From NCBI GenBank assembly GCA_017614315.1, contig JAGACA010000001.1, forward strand, positions 1-64,000: a stretch of DNA of 64,000 nucleotides, written 5' to 3'. The position numbers and the translations under genes were made by a program. The stretch's first letter is position 1; every line of letters starts with the position of its first letter. The notes beneath the pieces were generated by a model. The model had not been told where the DNA came from and made no database searches. It was given only the letters and a program-made list of their open reading frames with translations. Positions 10,339 to 22,559 of the stretch are shown piece by piece. This DNA comes from Clostridia bacterium (GTDB lineage: Bacteria; Bacillota; Clostridia; Christensenellales; CAG-138).

Positions 10339-10620
10339 CTATCTTAAAAACGCGATCCAAACGGCGATCAGCGCGCCGTCCAGTATCATCAGAACGGGAA
10401 GCCCCAGCATGAATTTCGCGTGCTTCGTCTTATGCCTTATTATGAGCATCGTCGCGAACATGGCGAAGCTGCCGAAGCACGCGCCGATCAGCATAAGCGT
10501 CCGTTCGGGTATGCGCCTGTCCCCCGCCTTCGCCGCGAGCTTGTCCCTTACGGTCAGCGCGGAGGCGACGAGGCTCATGAACAGTATGAAAGCTGCTGCT
10601 ATCCAGTCTCCGGTCTTCAT
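10339..10620 (-). CDS. DUF1294 family small membrane protein
   Basis: This encodes about 93 residues with three predicted membrane segments (about 7-25, 43-60, 70-90). The conserved DUF1294 core RRIPERTLMLIG followed by RHKTKHAKFMLGLP is clear. The family's function is unknown. I use the ATG at 10620; a TTG at 10656 would add 12 residues without hydrophobic or conserved character. No strong ribosome binding site is visible for either. It is the last host gene before the phage-derived locus and points away from it. Confidence 0.8.
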   Translation of the reverse strand: MKTGDWIAAAFILFMSLVASALTVRDKLAAKAGDRRIPERTLMLIGACFGSFAMFATMLIIRHKTKHAKFMLGLPVLMILDGALIAVWIAFLR

Positions 10621-10710
10621 ATCGAGTATTTTAACCGCATTCGCGGGCGATGTCAATCCCGCAAAACCGTCACTTGTTGAGAGAATTTTTTGAAATCGTT
10701 CTCTTATCCG

Positions 10711-10739
10711 TTGACTTATTCGAACACATGTGCTATAAT
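10711..10739 (+). promoter_or_regulatory. Promoter of the phage-derived locus with SOS-box-like operator
   Basis: TTGACT (10711-10716), 17-base spacer and TATAAT (10734-10739) form a strong promoter. The string CGAACACATGTGCT at 10721-10734 fits the Gram-positive LexA consensus CGAACRNRYGTTYC at 12 of 14 positions and lies between -35 and -10, where LexA would block polymerase. DNA-damage induction is therefore plausible but is inferred from one site. Confidence 0.6.
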
Positions 10740-10749
10740 AGTAATAGAG

Positions 10750-10813
10750 ACAAGCGTTGACGATGCCGTTTTTCCCGATCCCCCCGCGGGATGGGAAAGC
10801 GGCAGGCGCTTGT
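10750..10813 (+). promoter_or_regulatory. Long 5' leader hairpin with terminator-like tail
   Basis: ACAAGCG at 10750 pairs with CGCTTGT at 10807-10813. Inside it, GCCG-TTTTTCCCGATCCC pairs with GGGAT-GGGAAA-GCGGC. A U-rich tract (TTCTTTTATTATTTT) follows directly. It begins a few bases after the predicted start point and ends about 30 bases before the first phage gene. It could attenuate transcription or, like some phage leader elements, act in antitermination or mRNA protection. Confidence 0.55.
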
Positions 10814-10843
10814 TTCTTTTATTATTTTCAGAAGGAGAGAAAG

Positions 10844-11221
10844 ATGTCAAAAAACAGTTTCAACGAGTTGCTTGCGGGGCTTGAGGCAGAGCTCAAGCCC
10901 GGAGCGGACGGCGAAGAGCGCGTCTCCGTTTCCCCCGCCGAGAGGCTGGGAAGAGCTATGCTCGACCGTTTCGGGACGGCAGAAGGCATGAGCGAAAGCG
11001 AGCTCGTCGACGCGATCCTCGGCGAGTGGAACGCGCGGAAAGAGCCCTCCGGCATGCCGGCGGAGCCGTTCGAGCCCGTTCCCAAGCTTCCCGTACCCAT
11101 GAAAGCCGGCGTTAACACGCCGCAGCCCGCCGACTACGCGGATATGCCCGCGAAACAGTTCAACGAGCTCAAGAAGCTCCTCAAAAAGGCCGCCCTTGAC
11201 GGCAAAAGAATGAAGATCTGA
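10844..11221 (+). CDS. Putative scaffold-like protein upstream of the capsid gene
   Basis: This 125-residue hydrophilic protein has no recognisable enzymatic motif. It is acidic and helix-prone in the first two thirds, has a proline-rich middle, and ends in a basic amphipathic stretch (FNELKKLLKKAALDGKRMK). It lies 16 bases before the major capsid gene. Position, size and a basic C-terminal helix resemble head scaffolding proteins, whose tails bind coat protein; this is inference only. I start at the ATG at 10844, seven bases after AAGGAG; a longer frame runs back into the leader hairpin. Confidence 0.6.
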   Translation: MSKNSFNELLAGLEAELKPGADGEERVSVSPAERLGRAMLDRFGTAEGMSESELVDAILGEWNARKEPSGMPAEPFEPVPKLPVPMKAGVNTPQPADYADMPAKQFNELKKLLKKAALDGKRMKI

Positions 11222-11237
11222 AGAAAGGAAAAAACAC

Positions 11238-12443
11238 ATGCCCAACAACACAAACACCATAAGCTCGCTCACTTCCGGGCGATTCAATCCCACCTATTAC
11301 GACCGCCAGCTCCTCGAGAGCGCAAAGACGAAGCTCGTTCACGCCGAGTTCGGCCAGAAGCGTTCCGTCCCGAGGAACAACGGCAACAAGGTCAATTTCA
11401 GGCGCTGGAACCTCTTTGATCCCAACGCCGCGCTCTCCGGCCTTACCGAGGGCGAGACCCCGACCGGCCAGATGCTCTCCCAGACCGATATCGAAGCGAC
11501 GGTAAAGCAGTACGGCGCGTACGTCGAGGTGACCGACCTTCTCGACCTCACCGCCTACGACAGCGTCATAAACGATTCCGCGGAGCTCTTGGGCGAGCAG
11601 ATCGGCACCGTGCTCGAGTGGGTCACCAGGGACGCCATGTGCGCCACGACCAACGTGCAGTATGCCGGCGGAGCCATTGACCGCAAGTCGCTCGATCCGA
11701 CCAAGAAGCTGACCGTGGAAGAGATCAGGAAGGCCGTCCGCACCCTTAAGAAGAACAAGGCTCGCCCCTTTGCGGAGGACGGACGCGCGCCGCATTTCGT
11801 GTGTATCTGCTCCCCCGAGGCGACCTACGACCTGCAGAACGACGAGAACTGGAAGAACGTTTCCGCGTATTCCAACGCCGAAGCGATCTATTCCGGCGAG
11901 ATCGGCCGCCTTTACGGCGTCGTGTTCGTCGAGAGCACCGAGGCGAAGGTATATGAGCAGAGCGTTCACAACGCGGTCAAAGCCGACACCTCGAGCTCCG
12001 CGAGCTTCGTTCTGAAGAACGCTCCGACCGCGGCGGAGAAGGCGTATCTTTCCGCCGGCGGCGGCAAGATCAGGATCGGCTCGACCGAGTACACGCTCGC
12101 CTCCTCTGGCTCATTCGATCCCGACACGAACACCGTCACCCTGTCCGCAGCCGCTTCCCTTTCCGCGAACGCGGCCGTCTATTCCGAGGACGCCGGCGCG
12201 GTGGACGCTTCCACCAAGAAGGCGCTCCCCGTGCACGCGACGCTCGTTTTCGGCAGGGACGCCTACGGCGTCATCGACGTTGACGGCAAGGGCGCCGTTC
12301 AGCTCATCATCAAGCCCCACGGCTCCGGCGGCACCGCGGATCCCCTCGATCAGCGCGCGACCGTCGGCGCGAAGGCCTGCGCCTACGCCGCCGTGATACT
12401 GAACGACCTCTGGCTCGTCAAGATCGAGCACACCGTCTCCTGA
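11238..12443 (+). CDS. Phage major capsid protein, N4-gp56 family
   Basis: This 401-residue protein is the shell-forming coat protein. It matches the N4-gp56 family from end to end: an N-terminal arm with TYYDRQLLESAK, RSVPRNNGNKVNFRRW, TEGETPTG, QYGAYVEVTDLLDLTAYD, the ELLGEQIG helix, GEIGRLYGVVFVE, and the C-terminal FGRDAYGVIDVDGKG with GTADPLDQRATVG. Residues about 255-335 are a serine/alanine-rich insertion between the last two conserved blocks. The reading frame is intact with AAGGAAA before the ATG. This is the firmest evidence that the locus descends from a tailed phage. Confidence 0.95.
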   Translation: MPNNTNTISSLTSGRFNPTYYDRQLLESAKTKLVHAEFGQKRSVPRNNGNKVNFRRWNLFDPNAALSGLTEGETPTGQMLSQTDIEATVKQYGAYVEVTDLLDLTAYDSVINDSAELLGEQIGTVLEWVTRDAMCATTNVQYAGGAIDRKSLDPTKKLTVEEIRKAVRTLKKNKARPFAEDGRAPHFVCICSPEATYDLQNDENWKNVSAYSNAEAIYSGEIGRLYGVVFVESTEAKVYEQSVHNAVKADTSSSASFVLKNAPTAAEKAYLSAGGGKIRIGSTEYTLASSGSFDPDTNTVTLSAAASLSANAAVYSEDAGAVDASTKKALPVHATLVFGRDAYGVIDVDGKGAVQLIIKPHGSGGTADPLDQRATVGAKACAYAAVILNDLWLVKIEHTVS

Positions 12444-12463
12444 AAGAGGGAGGCGGACAGCTG

Positions 12464-13477
12464 ATGAAACGATTCAAGGATATAGTCCGCTCCGCCTTAA
12501 AGCCGCGCGAAACGAGCATTGACGTTCCCAAGGACGAACGCCCGGGAGACCCCCTCCCGGGCGCGGAAGCCCCGAGCGAGGACCGCGCGGAGAGCGCTTC
12601 CGACACGGGCAGCGCGTCCGCGGCGGAAGCCGCGAAGCCTGCCGCCGAAGTCCCTGCCGAAAACAACGGCTCCGGATCGGCGGGAGCCGCGGACAGCGGA
12701 TATGATCTCGACAGCGGCTTTTCGGAGTTCTATGACAGGCTCATTAAAAAGCTCGGCTCCTACGGGATCACGGGGATTCCGGGCTTTGACGAGCTTTACG
12801 GCCTGATCGAGAGCTTTCTGCGCCCCGCGATCGACGCCGCTGTCGCCGAAAGGAACCGCGCGGGCAGAGAAAACCTTGCTGAGCTCGACGCGGACGCTTA
12901 CGCGCGCGGTATGGGCGGTTCGAGCTATCTTTCGTCCGTCAAGTCGCGCGAGCTCGACGCCGCCGCGAGCGACGTCATGGCGCTTGAGGGCAAGTATACC
13001 CGGGCGGTCGGCGAGTATCTTTACAAGGCGCTGTCCGAGATGCAGAAGCTCGAGGCGGATATGTCAAAGCTCAGGCTGACGCTCTCCTCCTCCGGCCGCG
13101 GAGGCTCCGGGAGCGGAAGCTCCTCCTCCGGAGCCGACGCCCGCGTCAACGCGGAGCTCGGCTACGTCCCCTACGGACACGACAAGCACGGGGCGTATTT
13201 CGACGGAGTGTGGTACGAGGGCGATTTCAGCTATTTCGAAAAGAGCTACACCTATTCGGACTACGCTAAATACCTCGAAGGGCTTTCCCCTTCCGAGCGG
13301 TATCTTTTCTTTACGGGCAGCTCTGAAGAGTGGCGCAGGAAACGCTGGCAGGTGCAGTATAACCTGCCGCAGGTGGATTATCTCGAGCTCATGGCGCGGT
13401 TCATGCGCACCGGGGTCCCGGGAGGCGACTCCAATAACGGGAGCGGAGGTATGAGATGGTCGAAAACACTCAACTGA
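12464..13477 (+). CDS. Uncharacterised virion-like protein
   Basis: The protein has 337 residues and I do not recognise a family. Residues 1-85 are disordered, rich in Ala, Glu, Ser and Pro. Residues 90-210 are helical, with coiled-coil potential around EYLYKALSEMQKLEADMSKL. A Ser/Gly linker follows near 210-225, then an aromatic C-terminal domain with GYVPYGHDKHGAYFDGVWYEG and many Tyr and Trp. Its place between the capsid and the fibre genes suggests a head-tail connector, neck or tail-assembly role. It overlaps the next gene by 22 bases, so translation is coupled. Confidence 0.6.
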   Translation: MKRFKDIVRSALKPRETSIDVPKDERPGDPLPGAEAPSEDRAESASDTGSASAAEAAKPAAEVPAENNGSGSAGAADSGYDLDSGFSEFYDRLIKKLGSYGITGIPGFDELYGLIESFLRPAIDAAVAERNRAGRENLAELDADAYARGMGGSSYLSSVKSRELDAAASDVMALEGKYTRAVGEYLYKALSEMQKLEADMSKLRLTLSSSGRGGSGSGSSSSGADARVNAELGYVPYGHDKHGAYFDGVWYEGDFSYFEKSYTYSDYAKYLEGLSPSERYLFFTGSSEEWRRKRWQVQYNLPQVDYLELMARFMRTGVPGGDSNNGSGGMRWSKTLN

Positions 13478-14448
13478 AGAGGTTCGAAGCGAATATAGAC
13501 GTTAAAAAGACCGTCGCCATCCGTCCGTTCAGCGTGACCGACGGCGATACCGGAAACCTGCTGGTCCTGAACGTATATGACGGTCAGACGTCCGTCGACC
13601 TGTCCGGCTGTTTCGTGAACATGGTGTTCATACACAAGCGCGGGATCTCCGCGCAGGATTCGGACGACGGAAGCATTTCCGTGCTGGGGAACTCGGTCAC
13701 GGCAAGGCTCGATCCCGCCTCGTTCTCCCCCGGTCTTGTCGAGTGCGAGCTCCAGATCTATTCTGGAGCGGCGAATGAAACTCTGATAACCTCGGCAAGA
13801 TTCAGCTTCATATGCCGGAACGCCATTCTGAACGGCGACTCGATCGTTTCGCTCACGCAGTTTCCCGTACTGACAAGGCTCATAGGCTCCGTCGCCTCGG
13901 CAGAGGAGGCGCGATTGAGCGCGGAGACCGCGAGAGCGGCGGCCGAAGCCTTAAGGGCGGCCGCGGAGACGTCAAGAGCCTCGGCCGAGGCCGCAAGATC
14001 GGCCGCAGAGACCTCGAGAGCTTTCGCGGAAGCGGACAGATCGACCGCCGAAACGGCAAGGACGGCTGCCGAAGCTTTTCGAGCGTCCGCCGAGACCTCA
14101 AGAGCAGACGCGGAGAGCGCGAGATCGTCCGCCGAGACGGCAAGGGTCTCCGCCGAAGCTTTACGAGCGTCCGCCGAGACATTAAGAGCGAGCGCCGAGG
14201 TCTCAAGAGCGAACGCCGAGACTTTAAGAGCGGGCGCGGAGACCGCAAGAGCTGCCGCATCGTCTGCCGCCGTTTCTTCCGCAAACGCCGCCGCAGCTTC
14301 CGCAAACGCCGCCGCCGCGCTTATCGGCGAAGGCATGGACGGGATCGTCTGGAAGGACACGGATGAATCAAAGCGGTATCTTGTAAAGCTCCGTGTCGTG
14401 AACGGAAAGCCCGTCATGCTGTACACAGAAATGGAGGATAACACATGA
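13456..14448 (+). CDS. BppU-like baseplate/fibre protein with long heptad coiled coil
   Basis: This 330-residue protein has an N-terminal beta domain (about 1-130) resembling the BppU/DUF2479 attachment domain, with FEANIDVKKTVAIRPF and a later VECELQIYSG. Residues about 150-275 are roughly 16 consecutive seven-residue units of the form AETxRAS/AEAxRAA, a trimeric coiled-coil fibre shaft. A short C-terminal head (about 295-330) contains KDTDESKRYLVKLRVVNGKP, as in many phage fibre tips. GGAGG lies six bases before the ATG. It would join the particle to a distal receptor-binding protein. Its stop overlaps the next start by 4 bases. Confidence 0.8.
   Translation: MVENTQLKRFEANIDVKKTVAIRPFSVTDGDTGNLLVLNVYDGQTSVDLSGCFVNMVFIHKRGISAQDSDDGSISVLGNSVTARLDPASFSPGLVECELQIYSGAANETLITSARFSFICRNAILNGDSIVSLTQFPVLTRLIGSVASAEEARLSAETARAAAEALRAAAETSRASAEAARSAAETSRAFAEADRSTAETARTAAEAFRASAETSRADAESARSSAETARVSAEALRASAETLRASAEVSRANAETLRAGAETARAAASSAAVSSANAAAASANAAAALIGEGMDGIVWKDTDESKRYLVKLRVVNGKPVMLYTEMEDNT
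13905..14265 (+). repeat. 21-base tandem repeat region encoding heptads
   Basis: About 16 degenerate 21-base units encode the coiled-coil shaft of the fibre. The repeats also keep other reading frames open on both strands, which explains long but spurious antisense ORFs. Unit gain or loss by recombination would stay in frame and change shaft length. Confidence 0.8.
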
Positions 14449-15911
14449 GTACATCAAACCCTTTTAACATACCTTCCGAAGAAACGCAGAAGGAAAGAAA
14501 CGACATACTTTACCTGATCGCGTCCAAGATGGGCGCGGCCGACGCCTTGACCGCACGCGACCTTCAGGCGCTCGTGAGGCTTAACCTTCACAAGCGCGTT
14601 CCCGTCGGCGAGGAGTACGTTTCGGAACGCGAAACGGCGCTTACGATCAGCATCGGAGACAGCGCCGGGATAACCGCCGCCTCGGTCGACGAAGAAGCCT
14701 TCCTCGCCGCCGTCGGCGAAGCCCGCGAGGGCGTGTACGAGGCGACGTATGACGGCGCGGCGTGGCACAGGGAGGACGGAACGCCTATACTCCTTGCGGA
14801 CTACGGAATATCCGTTACAGGTACCCCCGCAGAGGGGGATCATATCGTCGTAACGGAGACCGCCGCGAAGATCGTGTGGCAGCTTGCCGATCACGACAAA
14901 TGCTGCGCTTCCGATGAGCGCTCCGTCGTGCTGACTTCAAGGGACGCGGTGACGGCCGGCTCGATCCCGTTCTCCGTGCCTCAGCTCCTGTTCTGTTTTC
15001 CGAACGGGCTTGAAGCGGGACGTTACCGCTTTGCCCTCTATCACGGCGCATACGGCGGCGGCACGGGACAGGACGGGATATATGAGTTTGTGATCACGCA
15101 GGCGATACCCGCGGGCGGCGGCTTAAGGCATTCTACCGCCGGAGTGTACGGCGGCAGTACGAGAGAGCAGATCGCAGGCGGCACGATAACGACCTACGGC
15201 GCGGCGCCCGAACGCGCGGTGATCGAATCGGGCGTTCGGACCACTTATCAAAGCTCGCTCCCGTCGACGGATATCGGCACGGTATCGGCGCATTCTGCGG
15301 CCGATATCCGCAGTATCCCCAATCTCTCGCAGGCAAACTTCACCGAGCGTAACGCTTACGGCGACAGCTATTATCCCCGCTCCTGCCACAGACAGTGGCT
15401 CAACTCGGACGGGAAAGCGGTAAAAGCCGGAGACAGCGCGTTCTCGTACTGGTGGACGCCGCAGTCGGTATTCGATATGCCGCCCGCCGAAAGCGTCCGC
15501 AAGCTTGCGGGCTTCCTGCACGGATTGGACCCCGAGCTCCGCGCCGTTATGGGCAAGGCGACCGTCAAAGTCGCAAAACCGGCCTGCGACTGCGCCGATC
15601 CGTCCGTTCCGGAGTACGAGACGCTGAACGATCCTGTGTTCGCGCTTTCGTTGACCGAAGTTTACGGCGAAAGCAACAACACGATAGCGGAAGGCTCCCA
15701 GCTCGCGCTTTGGTCGGGGACTACGGACGCTGCCAAGATCAAAGCGGCAAGCTCCGGGACCGCCGTGGCGTGGCATCTGCGTTCGTGCGTGCCGACCGTC
15801 GCGTATGCCGCACGTTTAGTGCTCGCCACCGGCGCGCCGAGCTACGGCATGGCGAACGGTACCAGCGGCGTCGTGCCCGGTCTGATCATCAAATCGAAAG
15901 ATGAGCCGTAA
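14445..15911 (+). CDS. Putative tail-fibre/receptor-binding protein with DUF6273-like C-terminal domain
   Basis: This encodes 488 residues. The first 60 residues are helical (RNDILYLIASKMGAADALTARDLQALVRLN), a middle beta region follows (about 70-300), and a C-terminal domain (about 305-488) has RQWLNSDG, WWTPQSVFDMPP, AGFLHGLDPELRAVMG, SLTEVYGESN and WHLRSC. These blocks match the DUF6273 domain, a C-type-lectin-like fold common in gut Firmicutes proteins and phage fibres. It probably recognises the host surface. No reverse transcriptase or template repeat is nearby, so there is no sign of a diversity-generating retroelement. It is translationally coupled to the upstream fibre gene. Confidence 0.75.
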   Translation: MSTSNPFNIPSEETQKERNDILYLIASKMGAADALTARDLQALVRLNLHKRVPVGEEYVSERETALTISIGDSAGITAASVDEEAFLAAVGEAREGVYEATYDGAAWHREDGTPILLADYGISVTGTPAEGDHIVVTETAAKIVWQLADHDKCCASDERSVVLTSRDAVTAGSIPFSVPQLLFCFPNGLEAGRYRFALYHGAYGGGTGQDGIYEFVITQAIPAGGGLRHSTAGVYGGSTREQIAGGTITTYGAAPERAVIESGVRTTYQSSLPSTDIGTVSAHSAADIRSIPNLSQANFTERNAYGDSYYPRSCHRQWLNSDGKAVKAGDSAFSYWWTPQSVFDMPPAESVRKLAGFLHGLDPELRAVMGKATVKVAKPACDCADPSVPEYETLNDPVFALSLTEVYGESNNTIAEGSQLALWSGTTDAAKIKAASSGTAVAWHLRSCVPTVAYAARLVLATGAPSYGMANGTSGVVPGLIIKSKDEP

Positions 15912-15921
15912 GGAGGACAAT

Positions 15922-16086
15922 ATGAAAAAACGAAACTCTATCGACCGTCTCCGCGAGCTTGAGGCGGAGAACATAAGGCTGAAAGCCCAAAACGCAAAGC
16001 TGACCGCCGACCTCGACTACGTCGCGATGATGACCGACGTCGAGATCGGAGACGAGGAGGAAGAAGATGCACAGCCCGAAGTTTAA
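15922..16086 (+). CDS. Small coiled-coil protein
   Basis: This encodes 54 residues, almost entirely one leucine-zipper-like helix (IDRLRELEAENIRLKAQNAKL) with an acidic tail. I use the ATG at 15922, preceded by a perfect AGGAGG. An upstream ATG at 15901 overlaps the fibre gene and lacks a site. Small coiled-coil genes at this place in Firmicutes phages precede xkdX; its function is unknown. Confidence 0.7.
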   Translation: MKKRNSIDRLRELEAENIRLKAQNAKLTADLDYVAMMTDVEIGDEEEEDAQPEV

Positions 16087-16210
16087 CAAGGTAAAAAGCT
16101 ATTACGACCGCGGCCTTTGGTCGAAAAAGCAGGTCGCCGACGCCGTCATAAAGGAATGGATCACGGCCGAGGAATACGCCGAGATAACGGGAGCGGAAAC
16201 GAACGAATGA
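16067..16210 (+). CDS. XkdX family protein
   Basis: This is a 47-residue gene overlapping its neighbours at both ends. The product contains KVKSYYDRGLWSKKQV and WITAEEYAEITG, the signature of the XkdX family found after the tail-fibre genes of Firmicutes phages and PBSX-like elements. The ATG at 16067 follows GAGGAGG and lies inside the coiled-coil gene in another frame; its TGA overlaps the endolysin ATG. The role of XkdX is not established. Confidence 0.85.
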   Translation: MHSPKFNKVKSYYDRGLWSKKQVADAVIKEWITAEEYAEITGAETNE

Positions 16211-17001
16211 AAAACGCCGTTGATTTTATAACCTTTGCGCTGTCCCACGCGAAAGCCGAAAGCGTGCCCGACGGCGCGAAGCTCCCCATCTCCGCCGACG
16301 AGTGCGGCGTCGAGCCCTGGGAGTATCTTTACGGCACCACGGGCTGTACCGTGACCGGGAGCCTGCTCGACGAGCGCTATAAAAACTTTTACAGGAAGAA
16401 GGGCTGGTCGCGCGAAGCGTTCGATATCGCGACCGAGAACTGGGCGGCGCTTAAAAGAAAGGCGACCGACTGTCAGGGACTTCTGGACGCGTTCCTCGGC
16501 ACGGACGTGACCGCGAACTACTGTTACGCCGCATGGTGCACCGAGCGCGGCCCCGTGAGCGAGATCGCAAGGCCGTATGAGCTCGGCGAGGCGCTGTTTT
16601 ACATGAATTCAGAGGGGCGCATGTCGCACGTCGGGTTCGTATGCGGCTTCCTTGCGGGCGAGCCGCTCGCCGTCGAAGCGCGCGGCATACGCTTCGGCGT
16701 AGTCGTTACCCGTTTTTCGGAGCGTCCCTGGACGCACAGGGGGCTCGTGACGCAAAAGCTCTCCTATGATCCCGAATACCGCGACGAGCAGGTGATACTG
16801 TCCGTCAAAAGACCCATGATACAGGGCGAGAGCATACTGCATCTGCAGAAGGCGCTGAACGCGCTGGGATATTACTGCGGAGCTCCCGACGGAAAATGCG
16901 GGAGGCTGACCATGAGCGGAGTAAACGCGTTCGTAAGAGCGCATGAAATAAAAAGCGCGCTGCCGGATACCGATCCGGAACGCGGGAAGGACGCCGTATG
17001 A
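16207..17001 (+). CDS. Endolysin: NlpC/P60-like amidase/peptidase with peptidoglycan-binding domain
   Basis: The protein has 264 residues. The N-terminal domain (about 1-190) has the NlpC/P60-like catalytic pattern: Cys in ATDCQGLLDAF, His in SHVGFVCG and an acidic/aromatic patch at LAVEARG. The C-terminal domain (about 200-245) is a PG_binding_1 repeat with ESILHLQKALNALGYY and DGKCG. It would cleave peptidoglycan peptides to release particles. The start overlaps the xkdX stop (ATGA), and the stop overlaps the holin start in the same way, so lysis genes are co-translated. A longer upstream frame is only the xkdX shadow. Confidence 0.88.
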   Translation: MKNAVDFITFALSHAKAESVPDGAKLPISADECGVEPWEYLYGTTGCTVTGSLLDERYKNFYRKKGWSREAFDIATENWAALKRKATDCQGLLDAFLGTDVTANYCYAAWCTERGPVSEIARPYELGEALFYMNSEGRMSHVGFVCGFLAGEPLAVEARGIRFGVVVTRFSERPWTHRGLVTQKLSYDPEYRDEQVILSVKRPMIQGESILHLQKALNALGYYCGAPDGKCGRLTMSGVNAFVRAHEIKSALPDTDPERGKDAV

Positions 17002-17285
17002 CGAGTTTGTTTACGTGGCAGGGGCTCGTGACGTATTCCGACGCTGTCCTCGCGACGGCGATAATCACGCAGTTCGTAAAGGATATCAAGCCGATAAGCC
17101 GTATCCCCGCGAGGCTTTTGAGCTATCTTGCGGCGCTGACCGTGCTCACCGCGGCGACGGCGGTCACGTTGGGATTCGACTTGAAAGCGCTGATACTTAA
17201 CGTGATCAATTCCGTTCTGGTCGCCCTCGCGGCGAACGGAGCGTTCGACGCGGTCAACGAGGCCGGAATAAAAAGGGCAAAATGA
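16998..17285 (+). CDS. Phage holin
   Basis: This encodes 95 residues with two to three membrane segments (about 18-30, 40-60 and 65-85) and a short charged tail ending AGIKRAK. The size, topology and 4-base overlap with the endolysin fit a holin that permeabilises the membrane and lets the endolysin out. It is the last gene of the rightward cluster and ends one base before the 3' end of the convergent transporter gene. Confidence 0.83.
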   Translation: MTSLFTWQGLVTYSDAVLATAIITQFVKDIKPISRIPARLLSYLAALTVLTAATAVTLGFDLKALILNVINSVLVALAANGAFDAVNEAGIKRAK

Positions 17286-18257
17286 TCAGGCGGGGCTTTT
17301 CCTCCCGATCGAAAGTATCGAGATGAGCGCGCCGGCAAGCACGAGCGCGATCCCGGCGGCCTTGAATACGGTCATGAGCTCGCCGAAAACGAGCATGCTC
17401 GTCAACGAAGCGAATACCGGCTCGAGCGTGTTGAGGGCGGAAGCGGGCACCGAGCCCAATATGCGGATGCCCGCAAGCAGCAGCCTGAGCCCGACTATAT
17501 AGCCGAGAACGCCGCTTGACAGCAATACGGCGAGTATGAACCACGAGGGCGGGAGCCGGAACCTTCCCGCCGCGAGCGCGATGATAAAGCAGATGACGGC
17601 GGCGGAGCCCGTGATATAGACGTTGGATACCGAGCCGTCGAGCTTTGAGTACGAGGCATGCCGCCCGGCAAGGAAATACACGGCGTACGCAAGCCCCGAG
17701 AGGAGCGCGAGCGTGACGCCGAGCGCGGGGCGGCTGCCCGAGCCCGCCGAGCCGGGAAGCGAAATGAGAGCGACGCCGCCTATCGCGAACACGAGAGCGA
17801 CGATCGCCGCAGGCCGCAGCTTTTCCCCGAAGATCATCGCGGAAAAAAACGCGACGAGTATCGGATATGTGAAATTGAGGACTATCGTCATGCCCGCGGG
17901 TATCGAAAGATACGCGTAGGAAATGAGCAGCATGGTCGCGGTGAAGCCGCCTCCGCCGAATACGGAGAGCTCCGCCGCCTGTCTCGGCGTGACCTTAAGG
18001 CTCTTCCTGCCGACGAGGCAGATGACGAGCGAGAGCGCGCAGGCGATCGCCATGCCGAAGCCGACGACCGATTCGTTGGGCATGGCTTTCGCCGGATCGA
18101 GCGCCATGAACGAGGGGGCTTCCCCGAACGCCCTTATAAGGAATTCCCCGGGAAGGCCGCCCTTCAGCGCGGTATTCGAAAGTATCGGCGTTATGCCGTA
18201 GCATACCGACGCGAGTATCACGCACAGCACGCCCCATGCTTTTTTCGAGCTTTTCAT
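17286..18257 (-). CDS. EamA/DMT-family transporter inserted in the phage-derived locus
   Basis: This 323-residue protein has about ten membrane helices in two EamA halves. Typical elements are VCYGITPILSN in helix 1, NFTYPILVAFFSAMIFGE closing the first half, and LEPVFASLTSMLVFGE closing the second. It exports or imports a small metabolite across the cytoplasmic membrane; the substrate cannot be predicted. It lies antisense between holin and terminase, an odd place for a metabolic transporter. I start at the ATG at 18257 because in-frame upstream ATGs fall inside its promoter; the predicted start point is the A of that ATG, so the mRNA may be leaderless. Confidence 0.88.
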   Translation of the reverse strand: MKSSKKAWGVLCVILASVCYGITPILSNTALKGGLPGEFLIRAFGEAPSFMALDPAKAMPNESVVGFGMAIACALSLVICLVGRKSLKVTPRQAAELSVFGGGGFTATMLLISYAYLSIPAGMTIVLNFTYPILVAFFSAMIFGEKLRPAAIVALVFAIGGVALISLPGSAGSGSRPALGVTLALLSGLAYAVYFLAGRHASYSKLDGSVSNVYITGSAAVICFIIALAAGRFRLPPSWFILAVLLSSGVLGYIVGLRLLLAGIRILGSVPASALNTLEPVFASLTSMLVFGELMTVFKAAGIALVLAGALISILSIGRKSPA

Positions 18258-18263
18258 ACGCTG

Positions 18264-18292
18264 ATAATACAATATTTCCATCCGGATTTCAA
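18264..18292 (-). promoter_or_regulatory. Promoter of the EamA transporter, leaderless-type
   Basis: Reading leftward: TTGAAA (18287-18292), 17-base spacer, TATTAT (18264-18269). Seven bases below the -10 is 18257, the A of the start codon. No SD precedes that ATG, which fits a leaderless message. Confidence 0.6.
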
Positions 18293-18366
18293 CAGTAAAA
18301 AGGAGGTGATGCGCGATAAAACTCATACTTAGCGGCGAGCCCAATCCCCGTCAGAGGGAGTTCTTT

Positions 18367-19659
18367 ATGTCAAGGGCCCGCCATACGGCCTACGGCGGAG
18401 CGAGGGGCGGCGGCAAGAGCTGGGCGATGCGAAGAAAGCTCGTCCTGCTCGCGGTCAATTATCCCGAGCTGAACATACTTTTGCTCAGGCGCACGCTGCC
18501 CGAGCTCCGCGAGAACCACATACTGCCCCTTTTGAAGGAGCTTTACGGCTTCGCGCAGTACTCCGCGACGGACAGGGTATTCAGTTTCCCGAACGGTTCG
18601 AGGATCAAGCTCGGATACTGCGATACGCTTACCGACGTTTTTCAGTATCAGGGTCAGGAGTACGCCGTCATCGGCATGGAGGAGGCCACGCATTTCACCG
18701 AGGAGCAGCAGCAGTTCCTGACGACCTGCAACCGCACCGCGAGGGAGGGCTTTTCGCCGAGGATGTATTATACCTGCAACCCCGGCAACGTCGGGCATGC
18801 GTGGGTGAAGCGGCTTTTCATCGACAGGGACTACCGCGACGGCGAGCGCGCGGAGGATTACGCCTTTATCCCCGCGAGGATATGGGACAACCGCGTGCTC
18901 CTCGACGCCGATCCCGGCTATGTGAAGCAGCTCATGTCGCTTCCCGAGGATCTGAAAAAAGCGCATCTCGACGGCGACTGGGACGTTCACGCGGGACAGT
19001 ATTTCCGCGAGTTTTCAAGGAGCGTGCACGTTGCGGAGCCGCATGAGATCCCACGCTGGTACAAGCGGTTCCGCTCCATGGACTGGGGCTATAACGATCC
19101 CTGCTGCGTGCTGTGGCACGCGGTCGATCCCGAGGGCAGGGTCATCACCTACCGCGAGCTTTACGTCCGCGAGATGCGCGCAGAGGAGGTGGCGGAGAGG
19201 GCGGTCGCTCTGTCACGCGGCGAGGAGATCGCCTATACTGCGGCGTCTCCCGACCTTTGGCAGCGCCGCGGACAGAGCCTTGCGACGAAGGCCGGCACCG
19301 CGGGCATGAGCCTTGCCGACGTGTTCAACAAATGCGGCATGCCCGTCATTCCCGCCGACAACGCCCGCGTGGCGGGCTGGCAGACGGTGCGAAGGTTCCT
19401 CGCCGCGGCGCCGGACGGGCGGCCTAACTGGCAGTGCTTTTCGGACTGCGCGAACCTCATCCGCACTCTGCCCGCACTCATATACGACAGCTTTGACCGC
19501 GAGGACGCGTCGGGCGGAGAGGATCACGCGCCCGAGGCGCTCCGTTACGGACTTATGAGCTGTCCGGGCGCGAGCGTGCTGCCCAGACCGAAGAAAAAGC
19601 CCGTGTTCGACCCTCTCGACCTCGGAAAGAGGCCCGGAGGAAGCTATCTTACGACTTAA
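18367..19659 (+). CDS. Phage terminase large subunit
   Basis: This is the ATP-driven DNA packaging motor and nuclease. The ATPase half has Walker A GGARGGGKS, an arginine-rich LLLRRTLPELRE and Walker B YAVIGMEEATH. The RNase H-like nuclease half has RSMDWGY, SPDLW and the final DHAPEALRYGL. I give the first ATG, which has GGGAG before it, but coding clearly extends upstream: the same frame from about 18310 encodes ILSGEPNPRQREFF, including the Q-type adenine motif, and has no standard start codon. A near-perfect SD (AAAGGAGGTGAT, 18298-18310) lies upstream. Removing one A from the AAAA near 18317 would join an ATG at 18309 to this frame. Confidence 0.92.
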   Translation: MSRARHTAYGGARGGGKSWAMRRKLVLLAVNYPELNILLLRRTLPELRENHILPLLKELYGFAQYSATDRVFSFPNGSRIKLGYCDTLTDVFQYQGQEYAVIGMEEATHFTEEQQQFLTTCNRTAREGFSPRMYYTCNPGNVGHAWVKRLFIDRDYRDGERAEDYAFIPARIWDNRVLLDADPGYVKQLMSLPEDLKKAHLDGDWDVHAGQYFREFSRSVHVAEPHEIPRWYKRFRSMDWGYNDPCCVLWHAVDPEGRVITYRELYVREMRAEEVAERAVALSRGEEIAYTAASPDLWQRRGQSLATKAGTAGMSLADVFNKCGMPVIPADNARVAGWQTVRRFLAAAPDGRPNWQCFSDCANLIRTLPALIYDSFDREDASGGEDHAPEALRYGLMSCPGASVLPRPKKKPVFDPLDLGKRPGGSYLTT

Positions 19660-19673
19660 AAGAAAGGAAAACA

Positions 19674-21224
19674 ATGAAAAACAACAATTCGGAATCCGAT
19701 AAATACTATTCCCTGTTCCGCGAGTTCTACGACGCTTACGCCGGCGAGAGGGCGAGGATCGAGAAATGCGAGCATCTGTACCGCGGCGATCATTGGTTCG
19801 ACGTGCCTGCGGACGATCCCAGAGAGCCGCGTCCCGTCACGCCCATAATCCACTCGTCGATCGAGAATGTGAGAGCCGACCTTGAGGACTACATACCCGA
19901 GGCCGTCATCACCGCAGACTCGAACGCTTACAGCGAGCTTGCGGAGACGCTTACGCGCGTAATAAAGGAGGATCACATGAACTGCTCGTACGACGAGGAG
20001 TTCAGAAAGCTCACGCACGACCTGCTCGTCGTGGGCTACGCCGTGCAGGAGATCGGCTACGATCCGGAGGCGCTTTCCGGCATGGGCTCCGCGTTCATCC
20101 GCCGCGTCGACGTATCCGGCGTGATGTTCGATCCGCTCGTGACCGACGTTCAGGACGGCAGGGCGGTATTCAAGTTCGCAAGGAGGACGCGCGGCTGGTT
20201 CCGCGATCATTATCCCGACAAGGCGGACAGGCTGAAGGACGACGGCGTCTTCATGGACGTTGACGGCGACGGCGTGCTCGCGCCGCGCTGCGATAAGAGC
20301 ATAATGCTGATCGAGTGCTGGGAAAGGGAATATGACGCGAAGACGGGTAAAAACTCCGTGCACATGCTTAAGCTGGCGGGCGGCGAGATACTGGAGAGCT
20401 CCCGCGAAGCCTTCCCGAACGGCGTTTACGCGCACGGCAGGTATCCGTTCGTCATAACGGCGCTGTTCCCCCGCAGGGGCTCGTGTCTGGGAAGCGGCTT
20501 CGTCGACATGTTCGAAACGAGCCAGCGATACTCCGACAAGCTCGACCAGATCGTGATGAAAAACGCCATGCTCGCCTCGCACAACAAGCTGCTGGTGACG
20601 GGCGCGTCCGGCTTCGACGAGGAGGATCTTCGCGACTGGTCGAAGGACGTGCACAAGGGCGACAACTTAAGCGGCGTGTCCTGGTTCCAGACCGCGCCTC
20701 TCCCCTCCTACCTCATATCCTATATCGCGGATATGCGAAACTCCATCAAGGAGGAGTCCGGCTCCAACGAGTGGTCGCGCGGCATGACCAATTACGGCGT
20801 GACGAGCGGCACCGCGATATCCGCCCTGCAGGAGATGAGCTCGAAGCGTGCGAGGATGGCGGCGAAGAGCCTGCATTCCGCGTTCCGTCAGGCCGTCGAG
20901 CAGGAGCTGGAGCTCGAGCGCCAATTCGCTCTGGGGCTCCGCTGCATAAAGACGTACCTCGACCGTTCCGATCCCGAGGGCGCAAAGAGAGCCGAGGGCG
21001 CGGCGCGCGAGATCATGAGCGCGGAGGAAATGCCCATTTCCGTCCGCGTGACGGTAAAGGTGCAGAAGGAGACCGGCTTCTCCGCCATAGCCCACAACGA
21101 CACCGTTTTCCGCCTTGTCGAGACGGGCATGATAACCCCCGAGGTCGGCCTCGAGCTGATCGTGTTCGAGGGCAAGGAACAGGCGAAGGCGCTGATGAAA
21201 AAAGCTCCGGAAGAGAGCGCCTGA
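19674..21224 (+). CDS. Phage portal protein
   Basis: This 516-residue protein forms the dodecameric vertex ring through which DNA enters the head. It resembles the portals of short-tailed (P22-like and N4-like) phages: an N-terminal helical region with CEHLYRGDHWF, PVTPIIHSSIENVRADL, then the DPLVTDVQDGRAVFKFARRT block, and a C-terminal stem/crown with TSGTAISALQEMSSKR. The reading frame is intact. It starts 14 bases after the terminase stop behind AAAGGAAA and is the last phage gene, followed by a terminator. Confidence 0.9.
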   Translation: MKNNNSESDKYYSLFREFYDAYAGERARIEKCEHLYRGDHWFDVPADDPREPRPVTPIIHSSIENVRADLEDYIPEAVITADSNAYSELAETLTRVIKEDHMNCSYDEEFRKLTHDLLVVGYAVQEIGYDPEALSGMGSAFIRRVDVSGVMFDPLVTDVQDGRAVFKFARRTRGWFRDHYPDKADRLKDDGVFMDVDGDGVLAPRCDKSIMLIECWEREYDAKTGKNSVHMLKLAGGEILESSREAFPNGVYAHGRYPFVITALFPRRGSCLGSGFVDMFETSQRYSDKLDQIVMKNAMLASHNKLLVTGASGFDEEDLRDWSKDVHKGDNLSGVSWFQTAPLPSYLISYIADMRNSIKEESGSNEWSRGMTNYGVTSGTAISALQEMSSKRARMAAKSLHSAFRQAVEQELELERQFALGLRCIKTYLDRSDPEGAKRAEGAAREIMSAEEMPISVRVTVKVQKETGFSAIAHNDTVFRLVETGMITPEVGLELIVFEGKEQAKALMKKAPEESA

Positions 21225-21232
21225 CCGCGCAA

Positions 21233-21264
21233 AAAAACTCCGTTCCGAAAGGAACGGAGTTTTT
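21233..21264. terminator. Bidirectional intrinsic terminator
   Basis: AAAAACTCCGTTCC pairs with GGAACGGAGTTTTT across GAAA. It ends both the rightward portal gene and the leftward aspS, and marks the right edge of the phage-derived locus. Confidence 0.9.
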
Positions 21265-21272
21265 AATGCCTG

Positions 21273-22559
21273 TTACGGATTGAGCCTTATGGGGCTCCTG
21301 AAAATGAACTCGGCTTCCTTGATGCCGATGTCGAGGAGCAGCATCGTCATGCGGTCCACGCCGAGGCCGAATCCGCCGTGGGGCGGGCAGCCGTAGCGGA
21401 AGAACTCCATGTAGAACTTTACGTCCTCGCCGAGACCCTTTTCGGCGGCCTGCTGCTTGAGTATCTCATAGCGGTGCTCGCGCTGCGCGCCGGTGGTGAT
21501 CTCCGTGCCGCGCCAGATAAGGTCGTAGCCCTGGGGGACGCCGTCCCTGCGCATGTGGTAGAACGCGCGCTTGTCCTTCGGATAATCGGTGACGAACAGG
21601 AATTCGTGACCGTATTCCTCCATCGAGAACTTATAGGAAAGCTTCTCCGCGTCGGTGGAGAGGTCGATCTTCTCCTCCTCGGGAACGGTATAGCCGTAGC
21701 GCTTTTCGAGCTCGTCGTAAAGATCGCGGAGCTTTATCCTCGGGAACGGGAGCGTCGGAACGACGGTCTTTAAGCCGAAGAGCCTCTCGATCTCGTCGCC
21801 GTACTTCTCGGCGATGTTCTTCAGGGAATAGGCGAGCATCTCCTCCTCGATGTGCATGACGTCCTCATACGAATCGATATACGCGAACTCGAGGTCGAAG
21901 CCGGTGAACTCGGTCGCGTGGCGGCTGGTGAAGCTCTTTTCCGCGCGGAACACGGGGCCCACCTCGAAAATGCGCTCGAGGCCGGAGGCCATCGCCATCT
22001 GCTTGTAGAACTGCGGCGACTGGGCGAGATACGCCTTGCGGTCGAAGTAGGTGAGCTCGAACACGTCCGCGCCGGATTCGGACGCCGCGCCGATTATCTT
22101 CGGGGTGTGGATCTCGACGAAATCGCGCTCGAGAAGGAAATCGCGCATGGACTTCACGAACTCCGTCTGAGCAAGTATCATCAGCTTGTTCTTTTCGGAG
22201 CGAAGGTCTATCCAGCGGTAATCGAGCCTTGCGTCGATCGAGGAATCCGCCATGAGGGGCATTGCCTCCGCCACGGATTCGACGACGAGCTTTTCGACGA
22301 TCATCTCCCTGCCGCCCATCTTGACGGCGGGATTCTCGACGACCTTGCCGTAAGCGGTGACGACGGACTCGATGGTGAGCTTGTCGACCTCTTCCGCGAC
22401 GTCGGGATATGCGCCCTTGTCGACGGTAAGCTGCAGCTTGCCGGATCTGTCGCGAAGGACTATGAACGCCATATAGCGCTTGTTGCGAAGGTTTTCAACG
22501 AAGCCGCCTACGCGGACGTATTCGCCGTCAGGCGCGTTCTTGACCGGGATCCTGTCCAT
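21273..22559 (-). CDS. aspS: Aspartyl-tRNA synthetase, archaeal/eukaryal type
   Basis: This 428-residue class II synthetase charges tRNA with aspartate in the cytoplasm. An N-terminal OB-fold anticodon domain (about 1-100) leads into the catalytic core with motif 2 FRAEKSFTSRHATEFTGFDLEF-like residues and motif 3 GGFGLGVDRMTM. It lacks the roughly 130-residue GAD insertion of the usual 590-residue bacterial AspRS, so it belongs to the short archaeal-type group. Many such enzymes are non-discriminating and also charge tRNA-Asn for GatCAB, but no gat genes are in view. The TEFTGFDLE residues favour aspartate over asparagine. AAGGAG lies seven bases before the ATG. Confidence 0.92.
   Translation of the reverse strand: MDRIPVKNAPDGEYVRVGGFVENLRNKRYMAFIVLRDRSGKLQLTVDKGAYPDVAEEVDKLTIESVVTAYGKVVENPAVKMGGREMIVEKLVVESVAEAMPLMADSSIDARLDYRWIDLRSEKNKLMILAQTEFVKSMRDFLLERDFVEIHTPKIIGAASESGADVFELTYFDRKAYLAQSPQFYKQMAMASGLERIFEVGPVFRAEKSFTSRHATEFTGFDLEFAYIDSYEDVMHIEEEMLAYSLKNIAEKYGDEIERLFGLKTVVPTLPFPRIKLRDLYDELEKRYGYTVPEEEKIDLSTDAEKLSYKFSMEEYGHEFLFVTDYPKDKRAFYHMRRDGVPQGYDLIWRGTEITTGAQREHRYEILKQQAAEKGLGEDVKFYMEFFRYGCPPHGGFGLGVDRMTMLLLDIGIKEAEFIFRSPIRLNP

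Follow-up and report, generated by a model that had tools for sequence, protein, structure and literature searches.

What becomes of a set of phage particle genes that persists in a bacterial chromosome with no recognisable gene for integration or replication at its side? This question is raised by a locus of ~10.5 kb (locus 1) in a 64,000-nucleotide stretch of DNA, hereafter the window, which comprises positions 1 to 64,000 of contig JAGACA010000001.1 of a Clostridia bacterium (Christensenellales; assembly GCA_017614315.1) and forms part of contig C8 of this draft genome (G000; 1.71 Mb, 21 contigs). A preliminary description of the letters alone had reported a capsid, a portal, a terminase, fibres, an endolysin and a holin in open frames, and had proposed a domesticated, possibly short-tailed, DNA-packaging particle. 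We find that these genes are one part of a larger set, which probably constitutes a podovirus-type gene transfer agent (GTA), domesticated, dispersed and inherited vertically, that is encoded at no fewer than two chromosomal loci. The domestication of the particle genes is well supported. Such a family-wide, dispersed variant of a GTA would be new, and in the literature searched no published naming of such genes in Christensenellales was found.

Particle genes at two chromosomal loci

The genes named in the preliminary description span 10844-21224, with all frames open, between a DUF1294 gene (10339-10656, minus strand) and aspS (21273-22559, minus strand). Hidden Markov model (HMM) searches bore out the head and packaging genes. 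The major capsid protein (MCP; 11238-12443, plus strand, 401 aa) belongs to the N4-gp56 family, scoring 247.8 bits with TIGR04387 (cut-off 60) and matching phrog_1357 (E 6.6e-68). The portal protein (19674-21224, plus strand) is of the P22/SU10 type, with matches to PF16510 (P22_portal, 76.5 bits, cut-off 26.1), PF23899 (SU10_portal, 34.9 bits, cut-off 30) and phrog_156. The terminase large subunit (TerL; 18316-19659, plus strand) matches PF03237 and phrog_979, its profile aligns with the solved terminases 5oe8 and 4dkw, and a GGAxGGGKS motif, Asp257 and an EDxxxxDH segment are invariant or nearly so in 12 aligned rows. A 125-aa protein encoded ahead of the capsid (10844-11221, plus strand) is a scaffold candidate by position; its homologue precedes the MCP gene in the genus loci, and it had no HMM match in Pfam and PHROG scans. 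The 337-aa protein g337 (12464-13477, plus strand), a virion protein candidate, belongs to no named family by HMM and gave weak matches only in a sequence search against solved structures; its homologues sit in the particle cluster of many genera. As had been described, the ten locus proteins scanned gave no match to an integrase, recombinase, repressor or replication family, and the eight flanking proteins scanned are of host type, one of them without a match. Across these ten and eight proteins, the hallmark of an intact temperate prophage (integrase, repressor and replication genes in one element) was not found.

The preliminary description had also read the locus as minimal and without a tail tube. 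This part has to be abandoned, since a second locus supplies an adaptor as well as a tail protein. The tail protein, F5 (475 aa; phrog_3287, a phage structural protein), is single-copy in 13/13 genomes of the genus and always lies on a different contig from the capsid gene; in G000 it is found at C18:58825-60255. Here, at locus 2 (L091), one strand carries F9, the SU10 adaptor F7 (PF24175, 33.7 bits, cut-off 27), F5 and F12, the very block that is missing from locus 1 in the window's genus. The divergent arm encodes a TerS-like protein of 91 aa and a ribbon-helix-helix (RHH) protein, and the locus is bordered by clpB and a macro-domain gene (RHH_1 and Macro by HMM). The particle genes of G000 are thus endogenised on both C8 and C18. 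The position of F5 after the adaptor suggests that it is a tail nozzle; a sequence search of this protein against solved structures found nothing. The TerS-like gene is present at locus 2 in 10/13 genus genomes and the RHH gene in 9/13. The former is so named because of its neighbourhood in other genomes, where it stands beside terL (G021, G023) or after the portal gene (G028, G033), and a TerS role for its product is presumed on this ground.

Comparison with other genera revealed how the two loci are related. The order TerL-portal-scaffold-MCP-F9-adaptor-tail-g337 is common to related phage contigs and to other genera of the family, where it reads TerL-portal-scaffold-MCP-F9-F7-F5-F12-g337; in some of these, genes for bppU, lysin and holin come next. 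In G023 and G021 the tail block follows a gene for an EamA transporter, and in G021 terL and portal are inverted upstream; in G023, G033, G019 and G026 terL-portal and the capsid gene lie on different contigs. In the window's genus it is terL and portal that follow the EamA gene, the tail block being at the other locus. Dispersal over several loci would imply that the genome of the particle could not be packaged whole. A decayed copy was seen in G117 (L334), where an N-terminal piece of the terminase adjoins a C-terminal piece of the tail protein, the remnant of a deletion; portal, capsid and adaptor were not found there.

Distribution, selection and inheritance

The locus is not the property of a single strain. 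All 12 other genomes of the genus that were searched have a single capsid gene (that of G004 is a fragment at a contig end). Across the family, G000 included, the gene is found in 92/103 genomes, representing 23/26 genera. The tail protein is likewise found in 92/103 and the terminase in 89/103; all three are present in 82/103 genomes, capsid or tail protein in 95, and none of the three in 5. Most occur as single copies, a minority of genomes having additional matches or matches in pieces (for the terminase, 8 genomes), and internal stops were met in only three matches, the terminases of G024 and G064 and the tail protein of G121. Some terminase matches are weak or resemble those of other phages (e.g. 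G065, G101). The capsids of G004 and G005 are truncated at contig ends, and G016, scored as capsid-negative, has its g337-bppU end at a contig edge, so that the absence may be an assembly gap. In a survey of the order that covered 395 genomes with a completeness of 90% or more, the capsid was found in 39/45 genomes of the family versus 20 of ~350 others, and 10 of these 20 matches are in two or more pieces with the middle missing, a phage-type capsid. The records of the relatives, many of which come from rumen or gut, include uncultured Clostridia, Christensenella sp. and Christensenellaceae.

The left flank of locus 1, consisting of DUF1294, a treble-clef protein or both, persists in 10/10 genus loci whose contig extends there. 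The right flank is not conserved: of the stretches retrieved, that of G003 alone has aspS. Of the synteny suggested beforehand, the left side therefore stood and the right side did not.

The main particle genes are under selection. Between G000 and G003, dN/dS was 0.105 for the MCP, 0.127 for both terL and portal, 0.130 for the lysin, 0.125 for the tail protein and 0.142 for the adaptor, compared with 0.110, 0.075 and 0.194 for the host genes aspS, clpB and trxB. Purifying selection acts on the capsid, portal, terminase and lysin genes, the values of the first three (0.10-0.13) lying far from the neutral value of 1. The ratio was higher for g337 (0.19), the scaffold candidate (0.29) and the TerS-like protein (0.51).

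Inheritance was assessed by comparing gene trees with that of rpoB, using tree distances, 999 permutations and the genomes that have both genes. Agreement was strongest for the portal (Mantel r 0.952, n=18), with 8/15 splits shared and a shuffled maximum of 2, followed by the tail protein (r 0.777, n=26; 12/23 splits, shuffled maximum 3) and the MCP (r 0.627, n=28; 7/25 splits, shuffled maximum 4); for each, 0/999 permutations reached so high a value. Inheritance has thus been mostly vertical, with some discordance. The MCP agrees least well, and some phage-like contigs nest within its clade in the family, so that genes have probably been exchanged with phages to some extent. Codon use, which had been described as host-like, is so on average: the locus genes measured correlate with the host pool at r 0.78-0.88, except bppU (0.62), and 27 host genes gave a mean of 0.85 with a minimum of 0.58. 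The capsid genes of two related phage contigs gave 0.58-0.59; since the least typical host gene also stands at 0.58, the contrast between host and phage is plain only in the averages.

In a second family, f42, the capsid is full-length and falls in a clade of its own. In a sample of 13 f42 genomes picked for having the capsid, the portal gene lay away from the capsid gene in 13/13, and in G584, a one-contig assembly, the distance is ~275 kb. In the five f42 loci read (L316 of G584, L317, L318, L320 and L321), the capsid-tail cluster is without a recognised terminase or portal. The family f42 thus appears to hold a second dispersed particle system of the same type.

A shared operator, the leaders and the remaining genes

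The two loci share a promoter architecture. At locus 1, a strong promoter was read from the sequence at 10711-10739 (plus strand), with TTGACT at 10711-10716, a 17-bp spacer and TATAAT at 10734-10739, and within it lies a LexA-like operator, GAACACATGTGC (10722-10733, plus strand). Alignment of the scaffold-gene promoters of the genus, from which G004 was omitted since its contig does not cover the promoter, showed TTGAC, GAAC and GTGCTATAAT (with at most one mismatch) in fixed order in 12/12 loci. The same promoter precedes the left operon of locus 2 in the 10/13 loci that could be aligned, and in several species AGAACA-N2-TGTTCT or a near match stands between −35 and −10 of the right operon. 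Searches with the operator pattern, allowing up to 2 mismatches, returned 5-10 sites per genome, locus 1 of G000 being an exact match, and a control pattern returned 0 in 9/9 genomes. In the sister genus represented by G023, the box TTGACAACAGAACATATGTTCTGTTATAAT precedes terL, and weaker look-alike boxes lie upstream of terL in G033, G019 and G026.

The operator resembles GAAC-N4-GTTC, the LexA box of Gram-positive bacteria. A Y-family polymerase gene in G011 (identified by HMM) lies behind the same box, as does a similar gene in G012. The assignment to LexA is only partly supported: lexA of G000 and G003 is without a clear box, although in G010 a site with 2 mismatches lies ~110 bp before a LexA-domain match. 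SOS control of the particle loci is therefore suggested by the promoter comparison as likely. In several genomes of the genus the operator also precedes two small families, one of them HTH_36 and resembling phage replication initiators, the other without a Pfam or PHROG match (L211, L231, L232, L234 and L218, L220, L222, L233, L235, respectively).

Downstream of the locus-1 promoter, the leader contains a hairpin followed by a T-run (10747-10822, plus strand), which is terminator-like and carries a constant GTTGACG block at an internal loop. All of the 12 genus leaders fold into this hairpin, at −26.8 to −43.2 kcal/mol. Covariation of the outer stem was considered and dropped, since RNAalifold on the 12 leaders kept this stem with two-sided changes in 0/10 pairs. 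The locus-1 leaders hold AAGCGTTGAC in 12/12 cases and the locus-2 leaders its exact complement, GTCAACGCTT, in 13/13 (in G000 the right leader of locus 2 is L091 7980-8027). This complementarity could reflect an RNA contact between the loci or a shared protein site. The right leaders of locus 2 (L091-L103) were also observed to have a short 5' hairpin with a G-rich arm, the loop ATAAAAA and a C-rich arm; by eye, the arms co-vary in some species (GCGGG/CCCGC, GAGGG/CCCTC) and not in all.

Locus 1 further encodes fibre and lysis proteins, all on the plus strand. A BppU_N-like baseplate or fibre protein with a coiled repeat (13456-14448) scored 20.5 bits with PF10651, under the cut-off of 23.1, and matches phrog_21457 (E 3e-13). 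It is followed by a DUF6273 fibre or adhesin-type protein (14445-15911; PF19789, 62.4 bits; phrog_19280), variable among species, of which no homologue was detected in the other loci of the genus that were retrieved. Next come a small coiled protein of 61 aa (15901-16086), with weak matches to families of unknown function only, and a 47-aa member of the XkdX family of small phage proteins (16067-16210; PF09693, 68.3 bits; TIGR01669, 35.4 bits). The endolysin (16207-17001) has a C-terminal peptidoglycan-binding domain (PF01471, 25.4 bits; phrog_1493), and a 95-aa membrane protein (16998-17285) is holin-like by a weak match to phrog_1299 (E 0.0034). A terminator-like hairpin and T-run, read by eye, follow the portal gene (21233-21264, plus strand).

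Between the lysis genes and terL lies the gene for the EamA transporter (17286-18257, minus strand; PF00892, 97.7 bits), a host-type gene inside the cluster that occupies the identical place and strand in 10/10 other genus loci covering the site. In sister genera, too, an EamA gene on the opposite strand stands after the lysis genes. This interruption was overlooked in the preliminary description, as was the missing ATG of the terminase: at the conserved N-terminus, AGGAGG is followed by ATA, the first in-frame ATG being at 18367. Because the sister species G003 has the same ATA, it may serve as a rare start codon.

Gene transfer agent or another particle

How would such a divided set of genes work? 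We propose that locus 1 supplies the capsid and scaffold candidate, the portal and terminase, and the fibres and lysis genes, and that locus 2 would add the TerS-like protein, the RHH protein, the SU10-type adaptor and the presumed nozzle. DNA damage or a similar stress would remove a LexA-type repressor from the shared operators and so switch on the two loci together; short-tailed heads would assemble, to be filled by the terminase with pieces of the host chromosome. Holin and endolysin would then lyse the producer cell, and the packaged DNA, presumably a random sample of the host genome, would be delivered to other cells. More tentatively, and short of what we would call probable, the ancestor of the family may have fixed a podophage as an organ of the host, the resulting GTA having since been split in various ways into two or three loci, according to genus, and being run as one through the shared LexA-type operator and perhaps through pairing of the leaders, AAGCGUUGAC at locus 1 with GUCAACGCUU at locus 2; f42 would be dispersed likewise.

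PMC9662315 defines a GTA by six features: caudoviricete proteins, packaging of random host DNA, endogenised loci, a genome that is not fully packageable, vertical inheritance and delivery. Set against this definition, three features were found here (the caudoviricete proteins capsid, portal, terminase and adaptor, identified by HMM and known from genes alone; several loci; mostly vertical inheritance), and a fourth, the incompletely packageable genome, would be implied by the dispersal. PMC12946183 offers the closest precedent, FpGTA of Faecalibacterium, which is compared here by its description (the accessions named there are RCH50849.1 and RCH50851.1). It is described as two operons encoding a most likely podovirus-like particle with ~40-nm heads and ~9-kb DNA, and is called the first GTA with podovirus-like morphology, very few GTAs having been described so far. 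The likeness extends to two separated operons, to TerL, portal, scaffold and capsid, to baseplate, fibre, holin and endolysin, and to the lack of replication genes. The modules are cut elsewhere, however. In the window's genus the adaptor and tail protein stand apart, as does the TerS-like gene in 10/13 genomes, and fibres and lysis genes remain with the capsid, unlike in FpGTA as described there. The joint TerS-TerL-portal-scaffold-MCP arrangement of FpGTA operon I is accordingly not found in this genus; TerL-portal-scaffold-MCP are joined in other genera of the family. Moreover, particles and 9-kb DNA were observed for FpGTA, whereas the family-wide system (92/103) is known here from genes alone. 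The same source reports that particles from human faeces contained packaged DNA of Christensenellaceae (HGM11616, QANA01; 3/25 events), with no genes named for it, and its gene search covered four metagenome-assembled genomes (MAGs), none of them Christensenellaceae.

The alphaproteobacterial agents RcGTA and CcGTA, as presented in PMC9662315 and PMC11150451, are similar in having genes in several regions, vertical inheritance and coordinated regulation, and a terminator inside the cluster with an anti-terminator, described for CcGTA (PMC11150451), parallels the locus-1 leader. They differ in host phylum and phage ancestor, the family studied here having an N4-gp56 capsid and an SU10 adaptor, and in regulation, by GafYZ and integration host factor (IHF) there versus a LexA-like operator here.

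Several observations weigh against a GTA. The system is known from genes, and nearly all genomes are drafts, mostly MAGs by their titles. G017, G027, G032 and G065, each at least 90% complete, are without capsid, tail protein and portal. The terminase of G000 is without a normal start codon, and the TerS-like protein matches no named HMM family and evolves fast. The lexA promoters of G000 and G003 have no box within 3 mismatches, and the right-hand dyad of locus 2 is degenerate in G000. Finally, the agreement of the MCP with rpoB is partial, and some phage contigs lie inside the capsid clade of the family.

The main rival, which we consider unlikely, is a domesticated particle that is released without gene transfer and kills or lyses, its packaged DNA being incidental. 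PBSX of Bacillus subtilis is a chromosomal phage-derived particle, long-tailed, that packages host DNA, and locus 1 shares with it a protein of the XkdX family. Fibre and lysis genes have been kept, and the DUF6273 fibre has the restricted occurrence that an antagonistic receptor-binding protein might show; for FpGTA, too, PMC12946183 leaves a non-transferring particle open. The family nevertheless differs from PBSX in its N4-gp56 capsid, its dispersed loci and its PF24175 adaptor, which is of the short-tail type and not that of a contractile or long-tail tailocin. Furthermore, packaging itself seems to be selected, since terminase and portal are under purifying selection and the terminase motifs are conserved. 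The earlier suggestion of a domesticated, possibly short-tailed, DNA-packaging particle is supported by the checks proposed with it, on distribution, dN/dS and the left flank.

Were related podophage modules captured repeatedly and independently by different lineages, rather than domesticated once in an ancestor? The MCP shares only 7/25 splits with rpoB, the phage-like contigs L113, L119, L123, L126 and L130 are nested in the MCP clade of the family, and the f42 capsids form a separate clade, all of which speaks for repeated capture. This explanation is nonetheless improbable, for the portal and tail trees fit rpoB better, one copy per genome is usual, the left flank is constant in the genus and sister genera present intermediate architectures.

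A third explanation is that the genes belong to a living phage or a helper-dependent satellite, with the replication functions encoded at some other place in the genome. Phages of the same type do exist. The contigs L113 and L119 (38.5 and 39.5 kb) carry the same module in the order TerL-portal-scaffold-MCP-F9-adaptor-tail-g337, with a capsid 64-65% identical; the module is preceded by further phage genes (those of L113 include an ERCC4 nuclease and a Cch-type HTH gene ahead of the terminase) and followed by a giant protein of at least 1649 aa. L126 may be another such contig. Together with the more distant named phages, Bacillus phages Pascal and Page and Paenibacillus phage API480 (34-36%), such free podophages have capsids 34-65% identical, and faecal phage records reach 45%. 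L113 and L119 are unlike locus 1 in being contigs of 38-40 kb, in the giant protein and in the codon use of their capsid genes. In G020, a second phage-like capsid-portal-terminase set (L050, G020:C28) with a different gene order was observed beside the normal locus. Other contigs filed as viral in IMG/VR (L111, L112, L117, L118, L120, L121, L122, L124, L125, L127, L128) resemble pieces of the chromosomal loci, with a GC content of 0.51-0.65 and family-type genes, L125 equalling the MAG contig L194 in size; virus catalogues may therefore misfile loci of the family as phages. A capsid-forming satellite (cf-PICI) has an integrase and its own replication and moves between strains; no such family was found in the locus, and the left flank is fixed in 10/10. 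A living phage or satellite is very improbable here, because genes split over separate loci, in this and other genera, would not be packaged as one genome; the fixed left flank and the host-like codon use point the same way. A decaying prophage persisting by chance, to which the lack of matched mobility genes, the missing start codon of the terminase and the truly decayed copy in G117 might be ascribed, is made very improbable, across the family at large, by dN/dS of ~0.1 for the main genes and by an open capsid frame in 92/103 genomes and 23/26 genera.

A dispersed, podovirus-type GTA thus remains the probable account, and its consequences reach beyond a single genome. The analysis provides a concrete family-wide gene set, for a group with Christensenella and Christensenellaceae records, and a predicted inducer, DNA damage, so that gene exchange in these mostly uncultured bacteria of gut and rumen becomes directly testable. 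The genomes also form a natural series in which one phage operon has been progressively split while its parts are still conserved. If the more tentative reading given above is true, the same dispersal in f42, with a capsid clade of its own, would make dispersed podoviral GTAs a recurrent and widespread means by which gut Clostridia exchange genes.

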